From Gemmatimonadales bacterium (GTDB lineage Bacteria > Gemmatimonadota > Gemmatimonadetes > Gemmatimonadales > GWC2-71-9): DNA of 43,307 nucleotides. Shown here one piece after another: positions 31,968 through 35,551 of the stretch (within the stretch, counting starts at the first letter, position 1; the number at the start of each line of letters is the position of its first letter). A program made the position numbers and the translations under genes. Below the pieces are notes generated by a model. It searched no databases. It worked only from the letters and a program-made list of their open reading frames with translations, and was not told the DNA's origin. The stretch covers positions 1 to 43,307 of the forward strand of contig JACDHV010000003.1 in assembly GCA_013820855.1 (NCBI GenBank). Direction: 5' to 3'.

Positions 31968-33302
31968 CTACGCGGACCGGGCGGCCGCCTCTCCCGCCGC
32001 CCGGCCCGTCGCCCAGGCCCACAGAAAGTTGTAGCCGCCGATCGGGCCGAACGCGTCGAGCACCTCGCCGCAGATGAAGAGTCGGGGGTGGCGGCGGCTC
32101 TCCATGGTCCGCGGATCGATCTCCGCCAGGCTCACGCCGCCTCCCGTCACCTCCGCCTTCCGGTAGCCTTCGTCGCCGACCCAGGGCAGCTCGCCCCGCA
32201 CCAGCACGGAGATCAGTCGAAGCCGGTCCTCGCGGCGCAGCTGGGCCAGCGGATGGGACGCCGCTACGCCGGCCTGCATGGCGAGCGCGTCGGCGAGCCG
32301 CTCGGGCAGGTCGCGGCGGAGCACACCCGCCACCGTGCGCGTGCCCACCGGCTGGAGCGCCGACTCCCAACCCGCCTCGTCGCGCGCGGTCCACCGCACC
32401 GTGAGCCGGGCCGTGCCATCCGCCTCCTGGCGCGAGCGCACCAGGACGTGCGACACGTCCAGCACCGAGGGCCCGCTGTACCCGCGGTGGGTGAAGAGGA
32501 AGCCTCCCGAGGAGGCCGAGTGTCGGTGATCGCCACTCGCGCTGATGGTGACCGGGAGCGAGACACCGGCGAGCGCGCCGAATGGCGAGGGCCCGGCCAC
32601 GATCGGTGTCAGCGCCGCGTACGTCGGATGCAGGGTGTGCCCCAGCGCCCGCAGGATCGCGATCCCGCGGCCGTCACTTCCGGTGTTCGGGACCGACAGC
32701 CCGCCCGTCGCCACGACGACCGCATCCACCACGAGCGGCGCGGCGCCCTCGCGCTCGACCTCCCACCCGCGGGCGCGAGGAGCGAGACCGGTGACGAGCG
32801 TATCCGGCACGAAGCGCGCCCCCGCGCGGGCCGCCAGCGTCAGCAGGCCGTCGCGCACGTCGCGAGCGCGGTGCGAGGCCGGGAAGAGCTTCGCGGACTC
32901 CGGCTCTTCCACCAGCGGCATCCCCAGCCCGCGCTCGAAGAAGGCGACCTGGTCCGCCAGCGGCCAGGAGCGGAGGATCTTGCGGAGCGTGTTGGGTGAG
33001 GAGTCGGTGACGAAGCGGCGCTCGTCCACCCGCGCCGGGAGGATGTTGCAGCGGCCGCCGCCACTGATGAGGATCTTTCGCCCACCGTCTCGCGTACGCT
33101 CGAGCAGCAGCGTCTCGGCACCGGCGGTGGCCGCGAAGATCGCCGCCAGCGTCCCCGCGGCACCGGCTCCGACTATGGCGACGCGGCGATTCCGGATAGC
33201 CCCTCCAGGATCGAATTCGACGAGTGAACGGCGGGCAGGAAACTTACTTCCCTTGTCCCGACAGGTCGGCGTTTCTAGTATTGGCCCCTGCCGCGTCGCC
33301 AT
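31968..33302 (-). CDS. NAD(P)/FAD-dependent oxidoreductase, HI0933/YhiN (BaiN-like) family
   Basis: RRVAIVGAGAAGTLAAIFAATAGAETLLLERTRDGGRKILISGGGRCNI; C-terminus GGVSLAEIDPRTMESRRHPRLFICGEVLDAFGPIGGYNFLWAWATGRAAG; start uncertain. Confidence 0.93.
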   Translation of the reverse strand: MATRQGPILETPTCRDKGSKFPARRSLVEFDPGGAIRNRRVAIVGAGAAGTLAAIFAATAGAETLLLERTRDGGRKILISGGGRCNILPARVDERRFVTDSSPNTLRKILRSWPLADQVAFFERGLGMPLVEEPESAKLFPASHRARDVRDGLLTLAARAGARFVPDTLVTGLAPRARGWEVEREGAAPLVVDAVVVATGGLSVPNTGSDGRGIAILRALGHTLHPTYAALTPIVAGPSPFGALAGVSLPVTISASGDHRHSASSGGFLFTHRGYSGPSVLDVSHVLVRSRQEADGTARLTVRWTARDEAGWESALQPVGTRTVAGVLRRDLPERLADALAMQAGVAASHPLAQLRREDRLRLISVLVRGELPWVGDEGYRKAEVTGGGVSLAEIDPRTMESRRHPRLFICGEVLDAFGPIGGYNFLWAWATGRAAGEAAARSA

Positions 33303-33387
33303 GGTCAGAGCCCGCGCGTCCTTCCCGCGTCCCACCGAGGTGTTCGTGCTAGTCCCGTCTCCCACCGCTCGACCCAGCCGCTGAGCC

Positions 33388-34482
33388 GTGGGAGACGCAC
33401 TGCGCGTGACCTATCTCGTCCGTGCCGCTGCCCGGGATATCGAGGCGAGGGCCGAGTCGTTGCTGCTCGAGCAGACCGTCGAGCTGCCGCGCTCGAGCCT
33501 TCGCGAGCCGGCCGTGGTGGAGCGGGTCCTGGGGCAGGTCGAGCGCGTCGAAGCAGGGAGCGAAGGCAGCCACCGGGTGACCGTCACCCATCCTCTCGTC
33601 ACCACCGCCTTCGACCCGGCCCAGCTCCTCAACGTGCTCTTCGGCAATTCCTCGTTGCAGCCTGACGTGGTCCTCGCGGATGTGGAGCTTCCCGATTCGG
33701 CGTTCGATTGGCTTCCCGGTCCGCGGGCCGGCGTCGCTGGGCTGCGCGCCCTCACTGGGGTCAGGAGCCGGCCGCTTCTCGCGACGGCCCTGAAGCCCAT
33801 GGGACTCGAGCCGAAGCAGCTCGGCGCGCTCTGCCGCACTTTCGCCGCCGCCGGGATCGACCTGGTGAAGGACGATCACGGCCTCGCGGACCATCCATTC
33901 TGTCCCTTCGAGGCACGGCTCGAGGCCGGCCTGCGCGCCACCGAGGGCACGCCGACGCTGTACGTGCCGAACCTGATCGGCACTCCGGAGCGCGTACTGA
34001 GACAGCTCGAGACCGCCCGAGCGGGGGGAGCGAAGGCGGTGCTGATCTCCCCGATGATCGTGGGCCTTCCCCTGCTGCACCAGCTGGCGACTCTCCCGGA
34101 CGGTCTGCCGATCGTCGCGCATCCGTCGCTGGCGGGGGTCCTCCGCGCGGAGTCGACGGTCGTGCTGGGCAAGCTGTTCCGCTGGTACGGCGCCGACGCG
34201 GTGATCTTTCCTCATGCCGGCGGCAGGTTCACCTTCGACATGGAGACGTGCCGAGCGCTGGCCCGGACGCTTCGCGCCCCGTCCTCCCGTGCTCGGCCGA
34301 GCTTTCCGGTTCCCGCTGGAGGGCTCGACGTCGATCGGGTCGAGGAGACGCTGGCCTTCTACGGCGCCGACAGCATCCTGTTGATCGGCCGCGGTCTCTA
34401 CGAGGCGGGCGAAGACCTCTACGAGCGGACCCGTGCGCTGGTGGCCCGGGTGGCCCGGGCGGCGTCCGCGGAGCGCGCATGA
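33388..34482 (+). CDS. RuBisCO-like protein (Form IV, RuBisCO large-chain superfamily)
   Basis: 364 aa; LLATALKPMGLEPKQLGALCRTFAAAGIDLVKDDHGLADHPFCPFEAR (KPxxG; KDDH instead of KDDE), YVPNLIGTPERVLRQLETARAGGAKAVLISPMIVGL, HPSLAGVL, GLDVDRVEETLAFYGADSILLIGRGLY; GTG start. Confidence 0.88.
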   Translation: MGDALRVTYLVRAAARDIEARAESLLLEQTVELPRSSLREPAVVERVLGQVERVEAGSEGSHRVTVTHPLVTTAFDPAQLLNVLFGNSSLQPDVVLADVELPDSAFDWLPGPRAGVAGLRALTGVRSRPLLATALKPMGLEPKQLGALCRTFAAAGIDLVKDDHGLADHPFCPFEARLEAGLRATEGTPTLYVPNLIGTPERVLRQLETARAGGAKAVLISPMIVGLPLLHQLATLPDGLPIVAHPSLAGVLRAESTVVLGKLFRWYGADAVIFPHAGGRFTFDMETCRALARTLRAPSSRARPSFPVPAGGLDVDRVEETLAFYGADSILLIGRGLYEAGEDLYERTRALVARVARAASAERA

Positions 34483-34922
34483 AGACGCACATTCGACGGA
34501 CCGGCGATGGCCGGTGGGAGGGTGTCCCGGTGTCCGCCTACAAGCCGGGCGGCACTCACTTCGCGGGAATTACGCGGCAGCTGCTGTTCGACGGCGGCGA
34601 AGGGCTGGGCTGTCAGCTGCGGTACTTCGAGATCGAGCCGGGCGGGCACTCCTCGCTCGAGCGGCACCGCCACGTGCACGCGATCATGGTGATCCGCGGC
34701 GAGGGAAGGGTACTGGTCGGCGACCGTGTGCTGGATCTCGCCACTCACGACCTCGTGCGCGTACCTCCGCTGACCTGGCATCAATTCCGGGCCGGCGAGG
34801 GTGAGCCGTTCGGCTTCCTCTGCATGGTCGACTGCGGGCGGGACACGCCGGAGCGGCCGGACGCCGGCGTCCTGGCGGAGCTGCGCCGCGATCCGGCGGT
34901 CGCGGACTTCATCCGGGTCTGA
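34479..34922 (+). CDS. Cupin domain protein translationally coupled to the RuBisCO-like gene
   Basis: ATGA overlap with the RLP stop; cupin motif 1 GGHSSLERHRHVHAIMVIRGEGRVLVG, motif 2 LVRVPPLTWHQFRAG; C-terminal FLCMVDCGRDTPERP. Confidence 0.9.
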   Translation: MKTHIRRTGDGRWEGVPVSAYKPGGTHFAGITRQLLFDGGEGLGCQLRYFEIEPGGHSSLERHRHVHAIMVIRGEGRVLVGDRVLDLATHDLVRVPPLTWHQFRAGEGEPFGFLCMVDCGRDTPERPDAGVLAELRRDPAVADFIRV

Positions 34923-34969: not shown

Positions 34970-35551
34970 CTAGCGGTGCTCTCCCGTCGCGTTGCCGATG
35001 ACGGCCCCCAGGTCGTCGGGAGCGCGGTGCCGGCATTCGCGCCTGAGATCCTCGATGTCCGCCGAGAGGAAGGCGCCCAACAGGCCATCCATGGTGATCT
35101 CGAAGGCCGGCAGCTCCTTCTTGGCGACGCTGTTGGAGTACATCGCCAGCACCGCGCGCTCGTCGAAACGGTAGAAGGAGTACGTGGGATACCGCCCGAA
35201 CAGCCGCACCTGGATCGGCTTCTGGTACTCTCGAGCGAGGCGGGCGAAGTAGCGGTAGGCGTCCTCGACCATCGCGGGAATCAGCGGCCCATCGTCGAAG
35301 TGCTTCTCCAGCGAGAACATGAGCTCGTGGTTCTCCAGATCCGGCAGAAACACCTCCAGGCTCGTGCCTTCCCGGCCGAGAAACGCCTTGATCGCCGCGT
35401 CGTGATTCTCCCGCCAGCGCCGCGAGTGGATGAAGTACAGCACCATCGCGCTCGACGACCCGATGAGCTCATCGAACCGGTACACGAATCCGGCGAAGGT
35501 GCCGACCCGAACGATCCCGGGAGGCTCGGGCACGAGGGGTGTGGACGTCAT
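34970..35551 (-). CDS. Conserved hypothetical protein (possibly DUF5919-like)
   Basis: IVRVGTFAGFVYRFDELIGSSSAMVLYFIHSRRWRENHDAAIKAFLGREGTSLEVFLPDLENHELMFSLEKHFDDGPLIPAMVEDAYRYFARLAREYQ. Confidence 0.55.
   Translation of the reverse strand: MTSTPLVPEPPGIVRVGTFAGFVYRFDELIGSSSAMVLYFIHSRRWRENHDAAIKAFLGREGTSLEVFLPDLENHELMFSLEKHFDDGPLIPAMVEDAYRYFARLAREYQKPIQVRLFGRYPTYSFYRFDERAVLAMYSNSVAKKELPAFEITMDGLLGAFLSADIEDLRRECRHRAPDDLGAVIGNATGEHR

Follow-up and report, generated by a model that had tools for sequence, protein, structure and literature searches.

An RLP gene and a cupin gene that overlap by four bases in a Gemmatimonadales genome very probably form a two-gene, translationally coupled MTA-isoprenoid shunt module of methionine salvage; we put the probability of this at about 0.88. 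That role is the most likely one for the pair because mtnA and dxs are likewise encoded in this genome. In the route proposed, MtnA, encoded elsewhere in the genome, would supply 5-methylthioribulose-1-P, which the RLP would convert to 1-methylthioxylulose-5-P by 1,3-isomerisation. The metal-binding cupin would then remove the methylthio group, in a thiol-dependent manner by analogy with Rhodospirillum rubrum, and the products would be 1-deoxyxylulose-5-P (DXP), destined for isoprenoids, and methanethiol for re-use. A first-pass annotation of the DNA had suggested that an RLP and a methylsulfurylase cupin of the R. rubrum type work together in another phylum. The tree, the cupin homology, the adjacency, the fusions and the presence of mtnA and dxs described below bear that suggestion out.

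The window, by which is meant the whole analysed stretch of 43,307 nucleotides, is contig C23 of an assembly of 363 contigs and 3.49 Mb that is 94% complete. A genome labelled as belonging to the order but to another family (G126) has a 4-kb stretch with 100% identity to plasmid NZ_CP007130 of Gemmatirosa kalamazoonensis, a species of Gemmatimonadales; by these kinship labels the window probably belongs to a Gemmatimonadales family that is not Gemmatimonadaceae. The RLP-cupin unit stands alone there, between a divergent flavoprotein gene upstream and a convergent gene downstream, and its GC content is 70.3% (70.1% for the window). The RLP open reading frame matches Pfam RuBisCO_large (PF00016) with 50 bits at a cut-off of 30.1, and the cupin matches Cupin_2 (PF07883) with 47.5 bits at a cut-off of 27.2. 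Coordinates and Pfam matches agree with the first description of the locus, a 364-aa ORF of the RuBisCO superfamily ending in an ATGA overlap with a 147-aa cupin (see the table).

Table. Positions of the RLP-cupin unit, its borders and its motifs in the window, and of related features at other loci.
Feature	Location	Strand	Remarks
DeepYkr-clade RubisCO-like protein (RLP), predicted 5-methylthioribulose-1-phosphate 1,3-isomerase	33388..34482	+	364 aa, GTG start
RLP motif K136-P-M	33793..33801	+	RuBisCO: KPK; DeepYkr clade: KPM/KPQ/KPL/KPV
RLP motif K161-D-D-H	33868..33879	+	RuBisCO: KDDE
Cupin, predicted 1-methylthioxylulose-5-phosphate methylsulfurylase	34479..34922	+	147 aa
ATGA stop/start overlap of RLP and cupin	34479..34482	+	four shared bases; translational coupling
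Cupin H63-x-H65-x-H67, predicted metal ligands	34665..34679	+	invariant in 58/58 cupins
Cupin H101	34779-34781	+	grouped with predicted metal ligands
Cupin C115	34821-34823	+	invariant among 58 cupins
Divergent HI0933-like/TIGR00275 flavoprotein gene	31968..33365	-	5' border of the two-gene unit
Convergent gene	34970..35551	-	bounds the unit at its 3' end; matches no Pfam or NCBIfam model
PNP-II, divergent purine nucleoside phosphorylase	C186:12625-13455 (G000; L083:1489-2322)
RLP-cupin fusions	L033:7965-9578; L034:7980-9599; L055:5841-7487		anammox Planctomycetota and Fibrobacterota
Cupin-less RLP/split-transketolase loci	L056:4963-9125; L196 (Shinella plasmid NZ_OZ000535) 913-9047; L020:2432-9140

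The RLP belongs with the enzymes known as RLP1. Its best solved relative is 3qfw (phmmer E 7.7e-89; 45% identity), followed at some distance by MtnW (E 3.3e-36). In a tree of 100 rows, built in the quick mode of IQ-TREE with SH-aLRT support and with other RLP forms sparsely sampled, it falls in a clade of 33 rows (SH-aLRT 100) together with 3qfw and Rhodopseudomonas RLP1, and MtnW falls outside. This placement among the RLP forms, which the annotation had called for, thus points to RLP1. All but one of the 33 rows, Rhodopseudomonas RLP1 among the 32, have a cupin gene adjacent; the genome of the single exception, L002, carries a close cupin elsewhere.

KPM at residue 136 and KDDH at residue 161, both reported at first pass, are indeed present in the RLP, and it retains the carbamylatable lysine of the latter and the first lysine of the former. 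They had been read as arguing against RuBisCO activity. The motifs do differ from those of RuBisCO, though KDDH is no peculiarity of this protein, being the usual motif of nearly all DeepYkr RLPs fetched. That the protein is a bona fide RuBisCO of forms I-III is rejected on these motifs, on its score against the type III model (77 bits, cut-off 497) and on the tree.

The closest characterised system is in R. palustris, where deletion, metabolite tracing and enzyme assay identified RLP1 (RPA2169) as the 5-methylthioribulose-1-P 1,3-isomerase and the neighbouring cupin (RPA2170) as the 1-methylthioxylulose-5-P methylsulfurylase (PMC5893883). The window shares with that pair the adjacency of the genes, the RLP clade and KDDH. 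It differs in having KPM where RLP1 of the R. palustris type has KPQ (with KDDH), in the four-base overlap and in the lack of any MtnP found in the genome.

Among solved cupins only 3kgz, 3ibm and 3jzv match the window cupin strongly. The last of these is Rru_A2000, the R. rubrum methylsulfurylase, a function assigned partly from established knowledge; it and the window cupin share 52% identity over 134 residues (E 2.6e-41). The window cupin is about 54% identical to 3kgz, which itself resembles the RLP-linked cupins of Rhodopseudomonas at 72-89%. In an alignment of 58 cupins E61, H63, H65, H67, H101 and C115 are invariant, and the window cupin keeps these and every other invariant column. The homology to the R. 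rubrum methylsulfurylase for which a check had been advised is therefore borne out by the 52% identity and the retained residues. The RLP of R. rubrum, presumably Rru_A1998, lies outside the 80 loci gathered for comparison, and the likeness to R. rubrum meant here is that of the cupins, together with the logic of the pathway, and not that of the RLPs. The methylsulfurylase function of Rru_A2000 is on record (PMC5893883). In R. rubrum the pathway includes MtnP (PMC5893883), of which none was found in the window genome.

The pairing of the two genes was followed in 151 genomes of relatives and in a separate set of 80 named loci spanning many phyla. A close cupin occurs in 24 of the 151, and in 23 of these an RLP directly adjoins it; the remaining one is a genome only 61% complete. 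Counting the window, six genomes of the genus have the pair, and every one of them shows the same ATGA junction. Given this conservation of both adjacency and junction, the pairing is not due to chance. Within the fetched stretches, 41 of the 80 loci from other phyla have a cupin that adjoins the RLP or forms one protein with it. Both Pfam domains are found in each of the three fusions, which are single ORFs of 537-548 aa from Candidatus Scalindua, from a member of the Brocadiaceae and from one of the Chitinispirillaceae; in the first of these the cupin match falls slightly short of its cut-off. Since the two are found joined in one protein, the fusions are strong evidence that RLP and cupin act together. 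What the first-pass annotation held to speak against its own proposal, namely a cupin outside the methylsulfurylase clade beside an RLP of unrelated function, or an unconserved adjacency, is not what is found.

In the same 100-row tree the RLPs of the window genus group with those of Verrucomicrobiota and Rhodothermaceae, and the pairs in the rest of the family are on a different branch, with Acidobacteriota and Ectothiorhodospiraceae. To judge from these branches, transfer probably brought in the pair on more than one occasion, with the genus apparently obtaining its own independently of its family relatives.

For the rest of the pathway the genome was searched family by family. The annotation had seen neither a methylthioribose kinase nor an isomerase. 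That holds for the window, but not for the genome as regards the isomerase, since mtnA is present on contig C4, where it is cut by the contig end and still scores 292.9 bits (curated cut-off 279). Linkage of mtnA to the pair is rejected: its neighbours in the genus are enoyl-CoA-hydratase-like and glycerol-kinase-like genes (sequences judged by eye). Nor is it specifically associated with the pair in its occurrence, because 117 of the 151 relatives have it, with or without the pair. A full dxs is also present (753 bits), which excludes the shunt as the only source of DXP. The shunt would add to isoprenoid supply and not replace Dxs, from which DXP would also come in the ordinary way.

The search that found mtnA did not find mtnP, which had been named as a gene to look for. 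No MtnP match (TIGR01694) turned up in the 94% complete assembly or in any pair-bearing relative, and neither MtnP nor MtnN was found in the genome, as its only two PF01048 proteins are both purine nucleoside phosphorylases; no known equivalog thus covers the conversion of MTA to 5-methylthioribose-1-P. MtnP is present in 11 of the 151 genomes, and the RLP-cupin pair is absent from all of them; on its own this lack of overlap is not significant (P 0.13). Two proteins of the trans-sulfuration family in the genome both score below the cut-off for OAH sulfhydrylase, the enzyme by which methanethiol would be returned to methionine.

One of the two PF01048 phosphorylases, here termed PNP-II, is divergent. 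In it and its orthologues Asp replaces the Asn of the 'ITN' motif of other PNPs, and Ile, Val or Leu replaces the His of their 'SHAEV'; the same pattern is present in the solved structures 4m1e and 4lna. In human PNP, Asn243 contacts the 6-oxo group and His257 the 5'-OH. The Asp and the hydrophobic replacement therefore suggest MTA as substrate, a nucleoside of a 6-aminopurine whose 5' group is non-polar. At E <= 1e-85, PNP-II is common in Gemmatimonadales and occurs in 108 of the 151 genomes, including all 25 that have an RLP. Only one of the 11 MtnP genomes has it, and that genome is 7% contaminated. Fisher's test for this near-exclusion gives P 1.3e-5, uncorrected for relatedness; since five of the 11 MtnP genomes are of one genus, that figure overstates the independent evidence.

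PNP-II may thus take over from the absent MtnP the formation of 5-methylthioribose-1-P, though this is less certain than the steps that follow it. The broader proposal, that this protein of the trimeric type evolved independently as a second MTA phosphorylase, stands in for MtnP throughout Gemmatimonadales and supplies the route through MtnA, RLP and cupin, is put forward tentatively, at a little under even odds. Possibly PNP-II is a plain adenosine phosphorylase instead, and it bears on this reading that Thermus has guanosine-specific and adenosine-specific PNPs, according to a review (PMC6302742). A literature search on PNPs of the Asp type gave nothing direct.

Though the shunt is strongly preferred, other functions for the pair have to be weighed. 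MtnA-type pathways serve the salvage of both 5'-deoxyadenosine and MTA. The main substrate could accordingly be 5-deoxyribulose-1-P from 5'-deoxyadenosine, with the RLP yielding DXP directly and the cupin otherwise employed, and the failure to find MtnP fits with this. A deoxy substrate, however, has no need of a cupin that cleaves C-S bonds, yet the RLPs of this branch nearly always have such a cupin as partner, and the one here keeps all the invariant residues of the methylsulfurylase family; this reading is improbable. About half as probable is a drift of the DeepYkr RLP and cupin, in this lineage, to another pentulose phosphate with a 1-thio or 1-hetero substituent. Both the missing upstream MTA phosphorylase and the mere 45% identity of the RLP to the solved RLP1-type protein 3qfw would be accounted for, but the RLPs of R. 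rubrum and R. palustris are only 53% identical and have a common function (PMC5893883), and the invariant residues are kept in RLP and cupin alike.

That the RLP is the DK-MTP-1-P enolase, MtnW, of classical methionine salvage is very unlikely. Its top NCBIfam score is to a model of MtnW type (PRK09549, 167 bits), but this is far below the cut-off of 409, as are the 122.8 bits against the MtnW equivalog TIGR03332 (cut-off 513.6); moreover MtnW (2oek) has KDDE in place of KDDH and lies outside the RLP clade of the tree. An apionate-type decarboxylase or transcarboxylase (OiaX-like) with an unrelated cupin, the fallback of the first-pass annotation, can practically be dismissed, as the similarity is that of the superfamily only (60.3 bits against the OiaX model, NCBIfam cut-off 700), the RLP groups in the tree with RLP1 enzymes whose function is established, and the cupin is a methylsulfurylase homologue, which would be without purpose on a substrate having no methylthio group at C1.

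RLPs in other settings were met in the course of the survey. Some members of the DeepYkr family lack a cupin neighbour. They belong to the one RLP family with the window RLP and are linked to mtnA, but they have transketolase subunits where the window has a cupin, and they occupy a separate part of the tree. The C subunit of a split transketolase is near the RLP in 21 of 39 cupin-less loci and in no cupin locus, and some of the former have the operon sugar ABC transporter, mtnK, mtnA, transketolase N, transketolase C, RLP. These associations suggest methylthioribose or deoxyribose catabolism, with transketolase taking the cupin's place. Among the papers searched, none was found joining DeepYkr RLP, mtnK/mtnA and split transketolase in a catabolic sense. 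A Lachnospiraceae cluster (L040:331-14840) comprises a sugar ABC transporter, mtnK, mtnA, a DeepYkr RLP, a class II aldolase, an aldehyde dehydrogenase of the CoA-acylating type and a microcompartment shell protein, and suggests breakdown of methylthioribose or deoxyribose tied to a bacterial microcompartment. Three loci (L152, L153 and L154, in genomes G117, G112 and G144, which are labelled as of the Gemmatirosa family) encode an RLP of another sort, whose motifs are KPN and KDDE; that of L152 is about equally similar to the type III RuBisCO, OiaX and MtnW models and is below every cut-off.

The RLP-cupin pair has already been worked out in purple bacteria, and the pair in Gemmatimonadales is most likely a further case of it. 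An experimentally defined route of sulfur salvage and isoprenoid supply would thereby be extended to this order. The entry of the route differs, in that it is present in a genome where MtnP, the usual first enzyme, was not found. For this step PNP-II provides a testable candidate, as the missing MTA phosphorylase of the many genomes that have mtnA and lack mtnP.
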